From: Chelativorans sp. J32
GTDB lineage: Bacteria > Pseudomonadota > Alphaproteobacteria > Rhizobiales > Rhizobiaceae
Reading direction: 5' to 3'
Assembly (NCBI RefSeq): GCF_000518985.1
Contig: NZ_JAEQ01000004.1
Location: 195,782 to 259,781 of the forward strand
DNA length: 64,000 bases
In this document: positions 766-37,707 of the stretch, in pieces
Numbering within the stretch: the first letter of the stretch is position 1
Layout: the number at the start of each line of letters is the position of its first letter
Position numbers and translations under genes: made by a program
The notes under the pieces: model-generated
Database searches by the model: none
Seen by the model: the letters and a program-made list of their open reading frames with translations, nothing else
What the model was told of the DNA's origin: nothing

Positions 766-2814
766 CTAGATATCCAGATCTTCGACGAACTCCGCATTTT
801 CCTGGATGAAGCGGAAACGGGCCTCGGGTTTCGTTCCCATCAGGGCATCGACTGCGCTGTTGGTGGCCTCAGGACTATCAAGGACCTCCACGCGAAGAAG
901 CGTGCGATGTTTCGGGTCCATGGTCGTTTCCTTAAGCTGAGCCGGCATCATTTCGCCAAGGCCCTTGAAGCGGCCGATCTCGACCTTGCCCCTGCCGGTG
1001 AATTCCGTTCGCAGGAGTTCGTCCTTATGCGCGTCATCACGGGCATACATGGTCTTGCCGCCCTGGCTGATGCGGTAAAGGGGCGGCACGGCCAGAAAGA
1101 GATGGCCGTTCGTGATGAGCTGCGGCATCTCCTGATAAAAGAAGGTGATGAGCAGCGAAGCGATATGCGCGCCGTCGACGTCGGCGTCCGTCATGATGAT
1201 CACGCGCTCGTAGCGTAGGTCGTCTTCCCGGTATTTGGAACGCGTGCCGCAACCGAGCGCCTGGATGAGGTCGGTGATCGTCTGATTGGCGGCAAGCTTG
1301 CCCGATCCGGCGCTGGCGACGTTAAGGATCTTGCCGCGCAAGGGAAGGACGGCCTGGGTGGCGCGATCGCGTGCCTGCTTGGCCGAGCCACCGGCGGAAT
1401 CTCCCTCGACGATGAAGATCTCGGCACCGGCTGCAGCGCCCACCGTGCAGTCTGCGAGTTTGCCGGGCAGGCGCAGCTTGCGCACCGCGGACTTGCGGCT
1501 CACCTCTTTTTCCTGCCGGCGCTTTAAGCGCTCGTCTGCGCGCGCGATCACCCAGTCCAGCAGCTTCGAGGCCTCGGCCGGATTGTCGGCGAGCCAATGG
1601 TCGAACGGGTCGCGGACCGCGTTCTCGACGATCCGCATGGCAGCGGCGGTGGCGAGCTTGTCCTTCGTCTGGCCGACGAATTCCGGTTCGCGCACGAAGA
1701 CCGAGAGCATGCCGGCGGCCGAGATCATCACATCCTCGGCTGTGACGATGGAGGCGCGCTTGTTGCCGGTAAGATCGGCATAGCCGCGCAGGCCCCTCAG
1801 AAGCGCGTTACGGAAGCCCTGTTCATGAGTGCCGCCCTCAGGCGTTGGAATCGTATTGCAGTAGGAGTTGAGGAAGGCGTCGCCGCCATACCAGGTGACC
1901 GCCCATTCCACGGCACCATGGCCGCCTTGTTTCTCGCTCTTGCCGGCGAAAACTTCCTTCGTGACCTGGAACTCGCCGTCGATGCTCGCGGCGAGGTAAT
2001 CTTTGAGGCCACCCGGGAAATGGAAGACAGCTTTTTCGGGGGTCTCGTCCTTTTCCTTGATGAGCGAGGGGGCACAATTCCAGCGAATCTCGACGCCGCC
2101 GAAGAGATAGGCCTTGGAGCGCGTCATCCGGTAGAGGCGGGCGGGCTCAAATTTGGCGTCGGCGCCGAAAATCTGCGGGTCGGGCTTAAAGCGCGTGCGC
2201 GTGCCGCGGCGGTTGTGAACCTCCCCCACATTTTCAAGCGGCCCCAGCGGGTGCCCGCGCGAAAAACGCTGGCGGTACAGCTGGCGCCCGCGCGCCACCT
2301 CCACTTCGAGCGATTCCGACAAGGCGTTGACGACCGAAACGCCGACGCCGTGCAGGCCGCCCGAGGTTTCGTAGACCTTGGAATCGAATTTGCCGCCCGA
2401 ATGGAGCGTCGTCATGATCACTTCAAGGGCGGACTTGTTCTTGAACTTGGGGTGCGGATCGATCGGAATGCCGCGGCCATTGTCAGTGACCGTGAGGAAG
2501 CCGTCCTCGGAAAGATCGACCTCGATGAAGGTCGCGTGGCCGGCCACGGCTTCGTCCATGGAGTTGTCGATCACCTCGGCGAAGAGATGATGCAGGGCCT
2601 TGTCGTCCGTGCCGCCAATATACATGCCGGGGCGCCGTCGCACCGGCTCCAGGCCCTCCAGAACCTCAATGTCCGCCGCGCTGTAGCTGTCGCTCCCGTC
2701 ACGCGCCTGGGAAGGGGCGCGCTGCGGCTTGCTCGCCGCGATGGGATCCGGCTGCTTGATCCGCTCAGCGCTGGAGGAGCCAAGCGTTCCAAAGAGGTCG
2801 TTGCTATCGTCCAT
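766..2814 (-). CDS. parE: DNA topoisomerase IV subunit B (ParE)
   Basis: This is the ATPase subunit of topoisomerase IV, which works with ParC to unlink daughter chromosomes. The 682-residue protein has a GHKL ATPase domain (EVIDNSMDE near residue 80, DNGRGIP near 112, GGLHGVGVSVVN near 153). It then has the transducer, a TOPRIM domain (EGDSAGGSAK, DADVDGAHI) and the C-terminal RFKGLGEM motif. The length fits ParE rather than the roughly 800-residue GyrB. ATG 2814 was chosen over an in-frame ATG 12 codons upstream because a GGGGAAGA Shine-Dalgarno site precedes it and the protein then begins MDDSNDLF. Confidence 0.95.
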   Translation of the reverse strand: MDDSNDLFGTLGSSSAERIKQPDPIAASKPQRAPSQARDGSDSYSAADIEVLEGLEPVRRRPGMYIGGTDDKALHHLFAEVIDNSMDEAVAGHATFIEVDLSEDGFLTVTDNGRGIPIDPHPKFKNKSALEVIMTTLHSGGKFDSKVYETSGGLHGVGVSVVNALSESLEVEVARGRQLYRQRFSRGHPLGPLENVGEVHNRRGTRTRFKPDPQIFGADAKFEPARLYRMTRSKAYLFGGVEIRWNCAPSLIKEKDETPEKAVFHFPGGLKDYLAASIDGEFQVTKEVFAGKSEKQGGHGAVEWAVTWYGGDAFLNSYCNTIPTPEGGTHEQGFRNALLRGLRGYADLTGNKRASIVTAEDVMISAAGMLSVFVREPEFVGQTKDKLATAAAMRIVENAVRDPFDHWLADNPAEASKLLDWVIARADERLKRRQEKEVSRKSAVRKLRLPGKLADCTVGAAAGAEIFIVEGDSAGGSAKQARDRATQAVLPLRGKILNVASAGSGKLAANQTITDLIQALGCGTRSKYREDDLRYERVIIMTDADVDGAHIASLLITFFYQEMPQLITNGHLFLAVPPLYRISQGGKTMYARDDAHKDELLRTEFTGRGKVEIGRFKGLGEMMPAQLKETTMDPKHRTLLRVEVLDSPEATNSAVDALMGTKPEARFRFIQENAEFVEDLDI

Positions 2815-3010
2815 CGAAAGTCTTCTTCCCCATGCGCGCCCACGAATCACATCGAGTTTGCCATGGATTTCATGGCAAAGCGAAGGCCCGTTCCGGTTCC
2901 GTTCGGTAGTTGTGAACGGCTCTTATCGGAAGAACCGCCGTTAGCCAACCCGATAATGCGGCGCATTCCTTAACGGAGTGCACCGCATTTGTTAACCTTT
3001 CGGGTGGCGA

Positions 3011-5815
3011 TCAGCTGGCGAGCGCTTCGATGGGTGGGCAGGCGCAGACAAGGTTACGGTCGCCGGCGACATTGTCGACCCGGGAGACCGGCGGCCAGTA
3101 TTTTGCTGCCCAGTCCATGCTGCCCGAGGGGAAGGCTGCGTCCGTGCGGGTATAGGGATGCGTCCAATTTTCCGCCGTTAACTCAGCCGCCGTATGGGGA
3201 GCGTTGACGAGCGGATTGTCGTCCTTCGGCCACTCGCCCCTCTCCACGCGCCGGGCTTCCTCGGCGATGGAGATCATCGCGTCGCAGAAGCGGTCTATCT
3301 CGCCCTTAGGCTCCGATTCCGTTGGTTCCACCATGAGTGTCCCGGCCACAGGCCAGGACATGGTGGGGGCATGGAAACCGTAGTCGATGAGGCGCTTCGC
3401 AATGTCTTCCACCGTGATCCCTGCGCGATCTTTGAGAACGCGGGTGTCCAGGATGCATTCATGCGCGACGCGCCCGTTGCGGCCCTTGTAGAGCACCGGA
3501 TAGTGAGCCTTGAGCCGCTCGGCGATGTAGTTGGCGTTGAGGATCGCCATCTCGGTCGCACGTTTCAGGCCGGCGGCGCCCATCATGCGGATATACATCC
3601 AGGTGATGGGCAGGATCGAGGCGCTGCCGAAGGGGGCTGCCGCAACCGCATCGCCGGACCCGAGCTCCACATGGCCGGGCAGGAACGGTTTCAGGTGCTC
3701 CTTCACGCCGATCGGGCCGATACCGGGGCCTCCGCCGCCATGGGGAATGCAGAACGTCTTGTGCAGGTTCATGTGGCAGACGTCGGCACCCAGATCGCCG
3801 GGCCGCGCGAGGCCCACCAGCGCGTTCAGGTTCGCTCCGTCGAGATAGACCTGCCCGCCATGCTCATGAATGACCGCGCACATGTCGCGCACACCCTCCT
3901 CGAACACGCCATGGGTAGAGGGATAGGTGATCATCAGGGCGGCAAGCCGCGTCGCATGCTCGGCGGCCTTCGCCTTGAGGTCCTCCACATCGATATCGCC
4001 ATCATCCGTGCAACGGACAACCACGACCCTCATGCCCGCCATCGCGGCGGAGGCGGGATTGGTGCCGTGAGCTGACGAAGGAATGAGGCAGACATCGCGA
4101 TGGCCTTCGCCACGCTCGCGGAAATAGCGGCGGATGGCGAGCAGCCCGGCATACTCGCCCTGACTGCCCGCATTGGGCTGCAGCGAGACGGCGTGGAAGC
4201 CGGTGATTTCCGCCAGCCAACCCTCAAGTTCGTGGATCATGCGGCGGAAGCCCACCGTGTGCTCCTCGGGCGCGAAGGGGTGTAGCCCGTTCACCTCGGG
4301 CCAGCTCACCGGCATCATTTCCGCCGCCGCATTGAGCTTCATGGTGCAGGAGCCGAGCGGGATCATGGCCCGGTCGAGCGCCAGATCCTTGTCGGCCAGC
4401 CTGCGCAGGAAGCGCATCATCTCCGTTTCCGAACGATGTTCGTGGAACACGGGCTGGGTGAGGAAATGTTGGCCGCGGGGCGCAGCCGCCGCGAGCGTGG
4501 CAGCTTCGGATGGGACGGAAATGCCGAAGAGGGAGGCGATCGCCTGAAGATCCGCTTCTGTGGAGGTCTCGTCGAAGGCGACGCCGATGCGATCCGCGTC
4601 GATGACGCGAAGCAGCCGACCCGACTTCTCGGCTTCCGCCGCGATGGCTTCGGTCCTGCCCGGAACACTGACCGTGATCGTGTCGAAGATCTTCTCACCT
4701 GCGAGCTTCAGTCCGGCGGCTTTGAGCCCGGCATGGAGGCGGGCGGCAAGCCCGTGAACATGCGTAGCGATGGCCTTCAGCCCCTCGGGTCCGTGCCAGA
4801 CGGCGTAGGCTGCTGCCATATTGGCGAGCAGCGCCTGCGCGGTGCAGATATTGGAAGTCGCCTTATCGCGGCGGATATGCTGCTCGCGCGTTTGCAGGGC
4901 GAGGCGGTAACCGGGACGGCCATGGGCATCCACGGATTGGCCGACGAGACGGCCCGGCATGAGGCGCGTGAGCCGATCCGAGACGGCGCAATAGGCAGCA
5001 TGTGGCCCGCCGAATCCCATGGGAACACCGAAACGCTGCATCGAACCCACCGCGATCTCCGCGCCAAGGCTTGCCGGCGTTTCGCTAAGGAGCAGTCCCA
5101 GCGGATCGGCCACGAAGATGACGATGATGTCCTTTGTCTTCGCCTCGCGGATGAGGGCGGAATGATCATGATAGACGCCATAGGTGTCCGCCCATGGAAT
5201 GACGAGAGCGAACGTATCGCTGTCGAGCTGGCCATTGGCGGCGATCTCGATCCCGAGCGGCTCGGCACGCGTCTTCACCACATCCTGGGTTTGCGGGTTC
5301 AAGGCACCCGCAATCACCAGCCTGTTGCGGCTGCTGCGATGGTGGCGCCAGGCAATCCCGACAGCCTCCGCCGCAGCAGTGGCTTCGTCCAACAGGGAGG
5401 CGGAGGCGACGGGAAGGCCCGTCAATTCCGTCACCAGCGTCTGGAAATGAAAGAGCATCTCCAGACGTCCCTGGCTGATCTCCGATTGGTACGGCGTATA
5501 GGCCGTGTACCAGGCCGGGTTCTCAAAGAGATTGCGCTGGATGACCGGCGGCACGTGGCAGCCATGATAGCCTGCGCCGATGAAGCTCTTCAGAACCTTG
5601 TTGTCCCGCATATGCGCTTGCAGCTCGGCAAGCGCCTCGGCCTCGCTCGCCGGCGGCGGCAGGTCGAGCGCGCGGTCAAGTCGAATCGAGTTCGGCACGG
5701 CCTGGCTGATCAGCGTCTCCAGCGAGGGCAGCCCCAGCGATGCGAGCATCGCCTTGGTTTCATCGGCACGGGGGCCGATATGGCGGGCGGAAAAGGGGGC
5801 GGTAGAAGACGTCAT
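3011..5815 (-). CDS. gcvP: Glycine dehydrogenase (decarboxylating), P protein
   Basis: This is the PLP-dependent decarboxylase of the glycine cleavage system. It removes CO2 from glycine and passes the aminomethyl group to lipoyl-GcvH. The 934-residue protein is the single-chain form, with both halves fused, unlike the split GcvPA/GcvPB of Gram-positive bacteria. The PLP lysine is K686 in [16 protein letters not shown], next to the glycine-rich loop. The start has an AGGAAA ribosome site. It is the last gene of gcvT-gcvH-gcvP, 79 bp after gcvH, and is expected to be controlled by the glycine riboswitch upstream of gcvT. Confidence 0.97.
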
Positions 5816-32723: not shown

Positions 32724-34052
32724 ATGCGTGTATCGCGTTATTTCCTGCCCATCCTGAAAGAGAACCCCCGCGAGGCGGAGATTGTATCCCACAGGCTGAT
32801 GCTGCGCGCCGGAATGATCCGTCAGCAGGGCGCCGGCAGCTTCTCGTGGCTGCCGCTGGGTAAGCGGGTTCTCGACAAGGTGTGCCAGATCATTCGCGAG
32901 GAGCAGAATCGCGCGGGTGCTCAGGAGATTCTGATGCCCACCATCCAGTCTGCCGATCTGTGGATCGAGAGCGGGCGCTATAACGATTACGGCAAAGAGA
33001 TGCTGCGCATCCGCGATCGGCAGGATCGCGCCATGCTGTATGGACCGACCAATGAGGAGATGGTGACGGATATTTTCCGCGCCTATGTGAAATCCTATAA
33101 GGATCTGCCGCTCAATCTCTACCACATCCAGTGGAAGTTCCGGGACGAGGTGCGCCCACGTTTCGGCGTCATGCGCTCCCGCGAATTCCTCATGAAGGAC
33201 GCCTACAGTTTCGATCTCGATTACGAGGGCGCGAAGGCAGCCTATAACAGGATGTTCGTGGCTTATCTGCGCACCTTCGCGCGCATGGGGTTGAAGGCGA
33301 TCCCGATGCGTGCCGACACCGGCCCGATCGGCGGCGACCTCAGCCATGAATTCATCATCCTCGCCTCGACCGGCGAGAGCGCTGTGTTTTGCGACAGTGG
33401 CTTCCTTGAGCTGCCCGTCCCCTCGGCCGAGATAGACTTCGCCAATGATGCGGAAATCGCCCGGACGGTGACGGAGTGGACGACGCTCTATGCGGCGACC
33501 GACGAAATGCATGACGAAGACGCCTGGTCGAGCGTCCCCCAGGGCAATCAACTTGCCGCCCGTGGCATCGAAGTCGGTCACATCTTCCACTTCGGCACGA
33601 AATACTCCAAGCCGATGAATGCGAAGGTGAGCGGGCCCGACGGGCAGGAGCATTTCGTCTCCATGGGTTCCTACGGCATAGGCCCCTCGCGGCTCACCGC
33701 AGCGATCATCGAAGCGAGCCACGATGAAAACGGTATCATCTGGCCGGAAAGCGTCGCTCCCTTCGAACTGGCGCTCATCAACATGAAGGCGGGCGATTCC
33801 GAATGCGACCGGGTTTGCGAGGAGCTTTACGCAGGCCTGACCGCAGCCGGCCGCGAGGTGCTCTATGACGACACGGATCAGCGGGCCGGCGCCAAATTCG
33901 CAACGGCAGACCTGATCGGGCTCCCCTGGCAGGTGATTGTCGGCCCCCGCGGGGTGGCCGTCGGCGAGGTCGAAGTGAAGAACCGCGCCACTGGCGAGCG
34001 CCAGACCCTGCCGATCTCGGCTGTGGCGGAGCGGTTCGGCGCAAAGCGATGA
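32724..34052 (+). CDS. proS: Prolyl-tRNA synthetase
   Basis: This class II synthetase charges tRNA-Pro. At 442 residues it is the short alphaproteobacterial ProS that lacks the inserted editing (INS) domain found in E. coli. Conserved segments are [19 protein letters not shown] at the N-terminus, motif 2 ([20 protein letters not shown]) near residue 135 and motif 3 ([10 protein letters not shown]). ATG 32724 is preferred to one 4 codons upstream because family members begin MRxSRYF. It overlaps lolC by 4 bp (ATGA). Confidence 0.96.
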
Positions 34053-35332
34053 GCAAGGCCGAGGCGGCAAACGGGGCGATCAGACCCTTCTCCTATTTCG
34101 AGCGGCTTGTCGCCTGGCGCTATCTGCGCTCGCGCCGCAAGGAAACCGTCGTTTCCGTTATCGCGTTGATCTCCTTCCTCGGCATTATGTTGGGAGTGGC
34201 CACTCTCATCGTCGTCATGGCTGTGATGAACGGCTTTCGAGGCGAGCTCCTGACGCGCATTCTTGGCGTCAATGGCCACATCGTGGTGCAGCCGATCGAT
34301 TCCCCCTTGAGCGATTACGAAGCCGTTGCGGGCCGCATCTCCCAAATACCGGGAGTGAGATACGCGATGCCGCTCGTGGAGGGGCAGGTGCTCGCCTCCG
34401 GGCGCAGCGGAGCAGGCACGGGCGCGCTGGTGCGCGGGATGCGTGCCGAGGATTTGACGAAGGTCGACTTGGTCGCAAAAAACATCCGCGCTGGCTCCCT
34501 GGTCGATTTTGCGGCGGGGCAGGGTGTGGCGGTCGGCTCCCGCATGGCGGCGAATCTTGGTCTTGCGGTAGGTGACTCCATCACGCTTGTCGCTCCGGAA
34601 GGCGATGTCACGCCCTTTGGCACCACGCCGCGCGTGAAGGCCTATCCGGTGACTGCCGTCTTCGAGATCGGCATGTCGGAATACGACGCCTCGATCGTCT
34701 TCATGCCGCTGGAGGAGGCACAGCTCTTCTTCAATGTCGAGGGCCTTGCGCAGTTCATAGAAGTGTTTGTCGATCAGCCCGACAGCGTCGAGGCTTTGCG
34801 TCCGCTTGTGGAGGAGGCGGCGCAGCGTCCGGTGTCGATCACCGACTGGCGCCAGCGCAACCAGGTGCTTTTCTCCGCGCTCGAGGTGGAGCGAAACGTC
34901 ATGTTCATGATCCTGACCATGATCGTGCTCGTGGCCGCGCTGAACATCATTTCGGGCATGATCATGCTCGTGAAGGACAAGGGGCATGACATCGCCATCC
35001 TGCGCACAATGGGCGCGACAAGCGGCTCGATAATGCGAATCTTTCTCATGGCAGGCGCTTCGATCGGCGTTGCCGGGACGTTTGCCGGCCTTGTTCTCGG
35101 GACGCTGATCTGCCTCAACGTGGAAAGCATTCGCGAGTTCTTCACCTGGCTCTCCGGGACCATGATTTTCGATCCGGAAGTGTATTTCCTCAGCCAACTG
35201 CCTGCGGATATGGAAAGCGACGAGACGATTTCCGTGGTCCTCATGGCGCTTATCCTTTCCTTCCTGGCAACGCTTTTCCCGGCCTGGCGCGCCTCGCGCC
35301 TCGATCCGGTTGACGCCTTGAGATACGAGTAG
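34049..35332 (+). CDS. lolC: Lipoprotein-releasing ABC transporter permease LolC/LolE
   Basis: This inner-membrane permease releases outer-membrane lipoproteins to LolA together with LolD. The 427-residue protein has one helix near residues 38-62, a periplasmic MacB-like domain to about 275, and three C-terminal helices of the FtsX type. Only one LolC/E-type gene is present here, which fits species that use a homodimeric permease. It overlaps proS by 4 bp and touches lolD without a gap. Confidence 0.92.
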
Positions 35333-36022
35333 ATGCCGACAAGCGTATTGGAATTGAAGTCGGTCGACCGGCATTACGTTCAGGGACCGAACACGCTTAC
35401 AATCCTCAAAAATGCTGATTTTTCGCTTCTGCCGGGCGAGATGGTCGCCCTTGTCGCCCCGTCGGGCACGGGCAAGTCGACGCTGCTCCATATTGCGGGA
35501 TTGCTCGAACATCCCGATGACGGTGACGTTGTCGTCAACGGGCAGTCCTGCGCCGGCCTTTCCGATGACAGAAGGACGGAAATCCGCCGGAAGGAAATCG
35601 GCTTCGTCTATCAGTTTCACCACCTTCTGCCGGAATTCACCGCGCTCGAGAATGTGATGATGCCGCAACTCATCGCCGGCTTGAGCCCGGCGGAGGCAAG
35701 GGAGCGCGCCGGCCAGCTTCTCGCCTATATGAAACTGGGCCCCCGCGTCGAACACAGACCGTCCGAGCTTTCAGGCGGCGAGCAGCAGCGCGTCGCGATC
35801 GCGCGCGCTGTGGCAAACGCGCCGCTGGTCCTGCTTGCCGACGAACCCACCGGCAATCTGGATCCCGAAACGGCCGGCTATGTGTTCGAGGCTCTTGAGG
35901 CCATCGTGCGCCATTCCGGCCTGGCGGCGCTGATCGCGACGCACAATGAAGAGCTTGCAGCGCGAATGGACCGCCGCGTCACCCTCTCGGAAGGGCGCGT
36001 CGTGGAACTGCCGAAAAAGTAA
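35333..36022 (+). CDS. lolD: Lipoprotein-releasing ABC transporter ATPase LolD
   Basis: This is the 229-residue ATPase partner of LolC/E. The Walker A motif is APSGTGKST (about residues 43-51), the signature [14 protein letters not shown] (near 145-158), the Walker [13 protein letters not shown] (near 166-177), and the switch histidine lies in [17 protein letters not shown] after the Q-loop is the segment typical of the LolD/MacB group. It starts at the base after the lolC stop. Confidence 0.95.
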
Positions 36023-36164
36023 CTGGCAGCTTGCCTTTCCACCCATGTGCCCACGGATAGATAGGGCTAACCGGAGCAGGCTTGCGAAGTTGCCCTGGTG
36101 CAGCTGGACTGCCACCTTTTCGAAGGGCTATCTGAGTGGCTGACGCTCGCTCGACCGCTGACAC

Positions 36165-36518
36165 TCACGCGGTATGGGCCAGGATATTGACCAGCTTCCT
36201 GAAAGGGTCCCGAACAAAGAAACGTCGCACGCCCCAGGGTTCGATCGCGGGCCCGTATTCGATCGGAATGCCAGCGTTTTTCACCCGGTCAAGAATAGTT
36301 TCGAGGTCGTCCACCTCGATCGATAGATCTGGCACTGGCGTGCCGGATCCGCCCTCCGAGGCGAAGCTGATCTGGACGGTCATCTGCTGCTCCGATCCAT
36401 AGGTGGAAATCCACCCATGATCCATCAGCGGTTCGAGCCCGAGCACCTTGCCGTAGAACGCATCGGCCGCCTCGATATCCGAGGTCGCTATATTCGCGAC
36501 GATTCTCCTGACCTTCAA
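36165..36518 (-). CDS. VOC family protein (glyoxalase/bleomycin-resistance fold)
   Basis: This 117-residue protein has the vicinal oxygen chelate fold (VRRIVANIATSDIEAADAFY at the start, GVRRFFVRDPFRKLVNIL at the end). The substrate is unknown; single-domain proteins of this kind include glyoxalase-like enzymes and drug-binding proteins. The start is a TTG at 36518, because GGAGGG lies 6 bp before it and the nearby ATG is out of frame. It is convergent with lolD. Confidence 0.85.
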   Translation of the reverse strand: MKVRRIVANIATSDIEAADAFYGKVLGLEPLMDHGWISTYGSEQQMTVQISFASEGGSGTPVPDLSIEVDDLETILDRVKNAGIPIEYGPAIEPWGVRRFFVRDPFRKLVNILAHTA

Positions 36519-36656
36519 CTCATCCCTCCGCAGGCGTTTGCCGGATCTGGTCCCCGATCAAGCGCTGGGCTGCTCCAACCCAAGCCCGTCGTCCTCGACA
36601 GCCCCGTGCCATCGCGTCCATAGCCTCCCCGCAGAGCCTATGGCTCGACTGTTCTG

Positions 36657-36685
36657 TTGACTCGAACAAAAATAGAACATATAGA
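36657..36685 (+). promoter_or_regulatory. SOS (LexA) box within a sigma-70 promoter
   Basis: TTGACT (36657-36662), a 17-bp spacer and TATAGA (36680-36685) make a good promoter. Inside the spacer lies GAACAAAAATAGAAC (36664-36678), that is GAAC-N7-GAAC, the direct-repeat SOS box recognised by LexA in alphaproteobacteria. Repressor bound here would block RNA polymerase. The transcript would lead to the 28-codon frame at 36730. Confidence 0.85.
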
Positions 36686-36729
36686 GATCATATCAAGTTT
36701 TATCCCACGGTTGTCCACAGGAGAGACAC

Positions 36730-36816
36730 ATGACGGAATTCGCGCAGGATCTTGCTTCCCTCATCGCATTGGGCTCCTTTGTTCTCGCTGTTTCGACTTG
36801 GATCGTAATGATTTGA
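36730..36816 (+). CDS. SOS-controlled 28-residue membrane peptide, SidA-like
   Basis: ATG 36730 has AGGAGAG 5 bp upstream and opens a 28-codon frame ending TGA 36814-36816. The peptide begins MTEFAQDLAS and continues as one hydrophobic segment of about 18-20 residues to the C-terminus, with a single tryptophan near the end. It follows a perfect SOS box and promoter. Size, topology and control match SidA of Caulobacter crescentus, a 29-residue SOS-induced inner-membrane peptide that blocks division at FtsW/FtsN. The functional link is by analogy; I cannot align the two here. Confidence 0.7.
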   Translation: MTEFAQDLASLIALGSFVLAVSTWIVMI

Positions 36817-36924
36817 CTGGCCGCGGCCGAAAGCGTGCGCCAGCGAAAAACGATGTACCACATTGCCCGGTGTTGCCCGAACGCCCTCTCTCTGAGAGCA
36901 GCCGGCGCTCCTCAGGAGGAGCCA

Positions 36925-37707
36925 CTATTGATCACGGCACATTCCGGATGCTGGCGGGTGTGAATCCAGCGTCCTAGCTTCGGGTGAGCGCGGCGGATCC
37001 TGGGATTCACACGGGCCAAAGACCTCTTCGAACGCCTGCTTCAACGCCACGTCAAAGTCAGCCATGGTGACGGGCAGGCCTAGATCAACAAGGCTGGTCA
37101 CGCCGAAGTCAGGGATACCGCAGGGCACGATGCCTGAAAAATGGCTGAGCTCCGGTTCCACATTGACCGCGATGCCGTGAAAGCTGACCCAACGGCGCAA
37201 GCGGATTCCGATGGCGGCGATCTTGTCTTCCATGGACGTGCCGTCGGGGAGGGGGGGCTTGTCGGGCCGTACCACCCATACGCCGACGCGGCCCTGCCTG
37301 CGCTCCCCTTTCACGTTGAAATGGGCGAGGCTGGTGATGATCCACTCCTCGAGTGCGGCGACGAAGGCGCGCACATCCTCGCGGCGGCGCTTGAGGTCGA
37401 GCATCACATAGGCCACCCGCTGGCCGGGCCCGTGATAGGTGTATTCTCCGCCCCGTCCGGTCTGGTAGACCGGCAGTTCGCCGGGATCGAGCAGGTCCTG
37501 CGAATCAGCGCTCGTTCCGGCTGTGTAGAGGGGAGGATGCTCTACGAGCCAGACCATCTCGTTGGCGCAGCCGGCCCGAATCGCTTCGGCGCGGCTTTCC
37601 ATGAAGGCAAGTGCGGTCTCATAGGGCGTGAGGCCGGCCTCGACGCGCCATTCGACGGGTGGCGAGGGAAGGCGCGGAAGAAACTGATTCTGGTTGCTAC
37701 GGTCCAT
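36925..37707 (-). CDS. lipB: Lipoyl(octanoyl) transferase
   Basis: LipB moves octanoyl from acyl carrier protein to lipoyl domains, such as GcvH in this window and the 2-oxoacid dehydrogenases. The 260-residue protein has [14 protein letters not shown] near residue 53, the [19 protein letters not shown] segment near 83, the catalytic lysine in [18 protein letters not shown], and the catalytic cysteine in [17 protein letters not shown] 37707 has an AGAGGAAA site. The last 25 residues after FGPCES are not conserved. Confidence 0.95.

Follow-up and report, generated by a model that had tools for sequence, protein, structure and literature searches.

A small membrane-peptide gene with a conserved LexA box in Chelativorans and other Hyphomicrobiales, a candidate SidA-type division inhibitor

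Small membrane proteins that stop division after DNA damage have been described in several bacteria. In Caulobacter, the inner-membrane protein SidA, 29 residues long and SOS-induced, acts on FtsW (PMC4211646), and the filamentation of a lexA mutant is due to sidA (PMC12700426). The Caulobacter SOS box, given as GTTC-N7-GTTC (PMC12700426), is the GAAC-N7-GAAC repeat read on the other strand. DidA, also of Caulobacter, is a further small division inhibitor with a single helix, likewise produced after DNA damage, but it has 71 residues, is SOS-independent and DriD-driven, and binds FtsN (PMC4211646). YneA of Bacillus, SosA of Staphylococcus and ChiZ of Mycobacterium are SOS- or damage-induced membrane division inhibitors too, and FtsW has been proposed as their common target; structure models of SidA with FtsW are not of high confidence according to their authors (PMC13396833).

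We analysed a stretch of 64,000 nucleotides from Chelativorans sp. J32 (hereafter the window), in which an earlier note had proposed an SOS-controlled peptide related to SidA. The best reading of the locus, to which we assign a probability of roughly 0.7, is that it encodes a LexA-repressed division inhibitor of the SidA type, with division arrest suggested by analogy. Identity with DidA is ruled out, since the window peptide has 28 residues and its gene has an SOS box. YneA, SosA and ChiZ differ from it in carrying elements in addition to the helix, for instance LysM in YneA and ChiZ and an extended helix in SosA (PMC13396833), and in belonging to distant phyla. Among the matches listed from the open-licence literature, we found nothing on the peptide in rhizobia and nothing on how Hyphomicrobiales halt division after DNA damage. 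Subscription papers, older LexA-regulon surveys included, were outside the scope of this search, so earlier reports of the peptide, or of a box upstream of dnaE, may exist. As a widespread, order-level gene with a LexA box, the peptide gene is a division-arrest candidate for Hyphomicrobiales that could be tested by one deletion.

A 28-codon gene behind a putative LexA site

The features of the locus are collected in Table 1. As the earlier note had claimed, a GAAC-N7-GAAC box sits inside a TTGACT/TATAGA promoter (36657-36685), where it fills the 17-bp spacer, and AGGAGAG precedes a 28-codon frame that runs from ATG to stop. In most relatives from the genus the -10 region reads, by eye, ATATA or ATAAA. 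A stock sigma-70 scan did not list the promoter of the peptide gene, because TATAGA lacks the final T that the scan demands; the scan gave one weak promoter-like site on the minus strand, at 36696-36669. Judged from the position of the -10 element, the leader would be about 40 nt long, and an Rfam search of positions 36000-37700 (E up to 1) returned no family match. The gene is too short for ordinary gene finders. The earlier note erred in placing it upstream of lipB, which lies on the minus strand and faces the peptide gene.

Table 1. Features of the window locus (window positions) and of the peptide's relatives in phage-like recombination operons (positions within each locus read)
Feature	Position	Strand	Basis or context
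-35 element TTGACT	36657-36662	+	read from sequence
Putative SOS (LexA) box GAACAAAAATAGAAC, within promoter spacer	36664-36678	+	sequence and conservation in relatives
-10 element TATAGA, 17-bp spacer from -35	36680-36685	+	read from sequence
Ribosome binding site AGGAGAG	36719-36725	+	read from sequence
28-codon gene MTEFAQDLASLIALGSFVLAVSTWIVMI, ATG at 36730, stop included	36730-36816	+	sequence, homologues, pN/pS, family pattern
lolC/E permease, conserved upstream neighbour	34049-35332	+	TIGR02212, E 4e-146, over cut-off; synteny
lolD ATPase, conserved upstream neighbour	35333-36022	+	ABC_tran; TIGR02211 LolD E 1.5e-77, below cut-off; synteny
Small glyoxalase-like gene	36165-36518	-	
lipB, facing neighbour	36925-37707	-	NF010921, E 1.3e-113, over cut-off
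L018 relative	frame start 883		operon with ERF and YqaJ
L019 relative	1498-1584		operon with PD-DEXK domain (DUF3799), weak sub-cut-off RecT match
L189 relative			operon with DUF3799
L210 relative			operon with ERF
L135 relative	3001-3090		Pseudochrobactrum plasmid, operon with ERF and NinB

A separate observation concerns the DNA directly 5′ of the ribosome site. The DnaA-box-like sequence TTATNCACA occurs there in 10 of the 16 loci of the genus (L005-L010 and L012-L015) and in none of the 201 loci outside those 16; in the window, positions 36711-36719 hold TTGTCCACA, a one-letter variant of it. This site could possibly tie the gene to replication initiation, a tie that would be confined to the genus Chelativorans.

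Conservation of the box and the peptide

Taken alone, the box is no more than chance would give. The exact GAAC-N7-GAAC pattern is found twice in the window against 1.83 expected, and 49 of 100 shuffles reach two; the whole genome holds 73 + 73 matches, against 47 + 60 for the reversed pattern. It is conservation that lifts the feature above chance, and a chance box is ruled out by conservation across related loci. Within the genus, 14 of 16 genomes carry the exact box 62-67 nt 5′ of the start, and the other two carry AAAC-N7-GAAC. In 217 related loci taken together, the 18,445 positions lying at -100 to -15 of the peptide match contain 209 exact boxes, against just 16 in the remaining 635,609 positions of that strand. 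The conservation in close relatives that the earlier note had asked about thus holds. Among the 216 related loci read, 180 have an exact box in the 130 nt upstream, a further 20 have a box with one mismatch and 16 have none. When four loci whose inclusion came after the box had been sighted are subtracted and two weak, box-less matches (L063 and L068) are added, the count becomes 177 of 214.

The 216 places at which DNA was read are the source of the related-locus counts. Of the places that the profiles matched in the family and order samples, they include most, not all, with E up to about 0.005, plus a few second copies, a choice that preceded any view of their DNA; L087, L088, L089 and L096 entered the set after the box sighting. 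L020-L023, L118-L127 and L132 are repeats of places already in the set, L077 is the same place as L116, and L017 belongs to a 729-codon frame. L131 was excluded for its wrong register; L063 and L068 were left out, and L066, L069 and L070 are also outside the set. Twelve weak class-level matches were read, and the eight without a box were excluded. The counts retain L274 and L089, whose start codons are poorly placed; L089 coincides with L312, and L347 with L380.

Among the 195 loci with lolCD upstream or with dnaE or lipB downstream, 172 have an exact box, 16 a box with one mismatch and seven none, and nine of the 16 box-less loci adjoin neither lolCD nor dnaE nor lipB. TTGAC lies within 14 nt 5′ of the box in 116 of the 180 exact-box loci (about 0.7% would be expected in ten positions), and 170 of the 180 have a purine-rich ribosome site. 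Furthermore, the sole match to the LexA DNA-binding family in the window genome carries a similarly built box, GAACACAACTCGAAC, ahead of its own start. The peptide gene is thus, as far as its DNA can tell, almost certainly under LexA control through this putative LexA site.

Two variations of the box were seen. More than one exact box is present in 30 of the 180 loci, and some of these boxes stand in tandem with a common half-site, GAAC-N7-GAAC-N7-GAAC (L035, L038, L041, L045, L048, L053 and others). At six loci, a peptide without an exact or one-mismatch box in the 130 nt stands before dnaE (L157, L182, L184, L247, L255 and L242), in five of them after lolD; the seventh box-less locus with a conserved neighbourhood, L183, is cut at a contig end. 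SOS control may possibly have been lost at the box-less dnaE-side loci.

The peptide itself has a homologue in all 16 Chelativorans genomes; the nine loci with organism names comprise seven from Chelativorans, one from Nitratireductor luteus and one from a Phyllobacteriaceae bin. A profile built from 15 peptides of the genus finds a match in 219 of the 297 family genomes when E is allowed up to 1, where the weak end is chance, and in 41 of the 397 genomes sampled from the order when the limit is 0.1. A wider profile matches 220 of these 397 at E up to 0.3, and 68 of 385 in the class sample, most of these last matches resembling chance. No curated family gave a significant match in Pfam, NCBIfam or PHROGs: four peptides had no match in Pfam and NCBIfam at E up to 10, 22 family members had none in Pfam at E up to 1, and PHROGs returned only phrog_35398, of unknown function (best E 0.026). 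Twenty peptides of a family that bears hfaA, discussed below, gave a single NCBIfam match, holin_5 (E 0.034). Plasmid searches at the DNA level and with a second peptide gave no useful match.

The codons are under purifying selection. The ratio pN/pS is 0.289 among 14 Chelativorans genes, a set that omits L003 (one residue longer) and L009 (whose peptide is identical to that of L008), and 0.185 among 17 hand-picked loci that we label Rhizobium-like; in the other two frames it exceeds 1, and third codon positions are the most variable. The amino acids are thus conserved and not the DNA alone, which rules out the outcome that the earlier note had named as counting against a gene, namely conserved DNA with unconserved amino acids.

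A residue pattern, acidic-x9-F-x6-W, runs through the family. An alignment on the acidic residue, from which 13 mobile or badly placed loci were left out, is possible for 178 of 179 distinct chromosomal peptides (D in 161, E in 17). Position +3 is S or A in 175 of the 179, position +10 is F in 178, partly by construction since the register search favoured F there, and position +17 is W in 156; the counts other than that for F are free of this bias. Mean hydropathy per position is positive or near zero from +1 to +18 past the acidic residue, and residues 0, 3, 10 and 17 share one face of a helix. This conserved face may be where another membrane helix binds. Box, selection and residue pattern together give strong support to the small SOS-controlled gene, coding for a peptide with one hydrophobic segment, that had been proposed from the window.

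These peptide properties also bear on a different kind of SOS peptide. TisB of Escherichia coli is a 29-residue SOS-induced membrane peptide; it is cationic and antisense-regulated and acts on membrane potential, its gene comes with a long leader and an antisense RNA, and SOS peptides such as TisB target the membrane and not the divisome. The window gene could accordingly be thought to encode a toxin like TisB or DinQ, which would insert into the membrane, lower the proton motive force and cause dormancy with no specific protein target. The size class, the single hydrophobic segment and the SOS box agree with such a toxin. Of the 177 distinct peptides whose box is exact or has one mismatch, 103 have 28 residues and 45 have 32 (range 27-43). 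However, these peptides are mostly acidic, with a net charge of 0 or below in 171 of the 177 and of -2, counted from its letters, in the window peptide, where TisB is cationic. That the acidic residue, F and W share a helix face hints at a partner protein, and a leader of about 40 nt and the lack of an Rfam match would be unlike the long leader and antisense RNA of tisB. The toxin explanation is weakened by these points, and we consider it unlikely.

Gene neighbourhood, dnaE and the link to SidA

Upstream of the peptide gene, lolC or lolD is found in 135 of the 216 loci; in the other 81 there is no lolCD within the stretch read, some of these stretches being cut by contig ends or read length. 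Downstream, dnaE follows on the same strand in 102 of 216 loci, and 102 of the 103 listed offsets are 84-777 nt. (The dnaE query was the first 465 codons from L157; PHP and DNA polymerase III alpha models match the first 200 residues of this query.) From these counts, the ancestral order was probably lolC-lolD-peptide-dnaE. A further 43 of the 216 loci have lipB downstream on the opposite strand, as in the window, and 42 of these keep the exact box. The dnaE gene of the window genome is on another contig and has no box in the 1.5 kb upstream; therefore, the box has stayed with the peptide and not with dnaE.

The closeness of dnaE at so many loci raises the alternative that the frame is a leader peptide or short upstream frame for dnaE expression, and that the replicative polymerase is what the SOS box really controls. 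The offsets given above and the box-and-frame regions upstream of dnaE outside the order, described below, would fit this. On the other hand, the lipB-type loci retain the box, the dnaE of the window genome is box-less, which together rule out for these loci that the box belongs to dnaE, and selection acts on the amino acids of the peptide. We therefore regard a role as dnaE leader as very improbable.

With the start of DnaE as anchor, we searched 149 genomes (148 outside the order plus the window's own), matched 131 and read 100 upstream regions, 99 from outside the order and one from the window genome. Fourteen of the 100 hold an exact GAAC-N7-GAAC followed, 20-130 nt on, by a hydrophobic frame of 22-60 residues; they span 11 families, and a LolD-like sequence was seen by eye upstream in nine of them. 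The other 86 regions, the window genome's own among them, do not have box and frame, and four of the 86 have only a box in the GTTC orientation without a frame of this kind, a rough indication of the chance level. The locus is thus patchy outside the order.

Two of the 14 regions belong to one family (f56), and both of its tested genomes carry the holdfast gene hfaA. This gene scored over the cut-off in three of 32 genomes, the third belonging to another of these families, and among 14 control genomes it matched in Caulobacter vibrioides only. Within f56, dnaE was matched in 88 of 96 genomes, and 35 of 50 dnaE-upstream regions have the box and a small hydrophobic frame, which are absent from the other 15. 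A set of 20 chosen peptides has a consensus near WxKDAAAGxGLVxFxxxSF. Aligned with the Rhizobiales profile, the f56 profile falls in the same register (D, with F ten on) with a probability of 76 and a score of 22.3, against 7.4 for the reversed control and 17.1 for the best of 300 column shuffles.

For Caulobacter itself, the arrangement can be approached through gene tags given in several papers. There sidA is CCNA_02004 (PMC10769358), dnaE is CC1926 and lexA CC1902 (PMC1839093), and lexA is also CCNA_01979 (PMC11535069). The offset of 77 between the two lexA tags would make dnaE CCNA_02003, adjoining sidA; by this tag arithmetic, as distinct from sequence, sidA is probably beside dnaE in Caulobacter. 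Since CCNA_02005 is a nucleoside hydrolase (PMC3667746), we chose nucleoside-hydrolase loci of f56, and dnaE was nearby in none of the 30 that were read, so that the Caulobacter arrangement was not confirmed in DNA at these loci.

The link to SidA that the earlier note had drawn from size and regulation is thus extended in part. The window peptide resembles SidA in length (28 against 29 residues), as a predicted inner-membrane peptide and in its almost certain LexA control via a GAAC/GTTC direct repeat (PMC4211646, PMC12700426). To this are added the linkage to dnaE, seen both within the order and in 11 families beyond it and, probably, by tag arithmetic, for sidA too, and the similar box-bearing peptides upstream of dnaE in f56 with their profile match; the comparison with SidA is by description. 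Against it stands the sidA-dnaE arrangement, which was not seen in DNA at the nucleoside-hydrolase loci. Moreover, most members of the present family keep the acidic-x9-F-x6-W pattern and follow lolC-lolD, and the window gene is parted from dnaE, which sets them apart from SidA.

Relatives in phage-like operons and a possible mechanism

Five phage-like recombination operons hold relatives of the peptide that lack an SOS box in its usual position (Table 1), and L204 appears by eye to have the same arrangement as L189. Kil of phage lambda is a small division inhibitor that acts on FtsZ and is encoded beside the Red recombination genes. As the box-less relatives also adjoin phage recombination genes, lambda Kil would be their obvious analogue, a likeness drawn from context. 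Phage records searched with the peptides gave no match or one weak match, a DNA-level search of phages gave no useful match, and none of 19 stretches from viral contigs was confirmed.

The phage-like relatives also bear on the idea that the peptide is an SOS-induced regulator of some other membrane protein, such as a transporter, a protease or LolCD itself, and not of the divisome. A conserved helix face would suit any partner, and the frequency of lolC or lolD upstream could point to LolCD. However, the relatives in prophage-like operons are away from lolCD, and so, within the stretches read (some of them truncated), are the 81 loci mentioned above. We consider such a regulator quite improbable.

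For the SidA-type division inhibitor that we prefer, we infer LexA binding, induction, membrane insertion, target and arrest as follows. In the undamaged cell, LexA on the GAAC repeat between the -35 and -10 elements would block RNA polymerase. After damage, RecA would trigger LexA cleavage and free the promoter, and the short leader and strong ribosome site would let the peptide be made at once. The peptide would insert into the inner membrane, where the helix face formed by the acidic residue, the small residue at +3, F at +10 and W at +17 may bind a membrane protein of the divisome. By analogy with SidA and from the low-confidence FtsW models of several SOS inhibitors (PMC13396833), the target would most likely be FtsW. 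Septal wall synthesis would then be held inactive until LexA returns.

A wider hypothesis, which we offer tentatively and hold to be somewhat less probable than its negation, is that SidA belongs, as one branch, to an SOS checkpoint gene that is ancestral in the Alphaproteobacteria and lies in front of dnaE. One LexA-controlled promoter would halt division and could also raise the replicative polymerase, and temperate phages of these hosts would have acquired the peptide but not its box, as a Kil-like blocker of division in their recombination operons. If SidA is a relative by descent, the Caulobacter checkpoint would date back at least to the split of these orders. The dnaE link suggests that division arrest and the supply of replicative polymerase may share one damage signal.

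A longer relative (43 residues by the nearest ATG) was also found in one genome (L275 in G517). It occurs with the same score at four places on several contigs, and the one copy that was read adjoins a ParB-N-like gene; this relative is perhaps on a mobile element.
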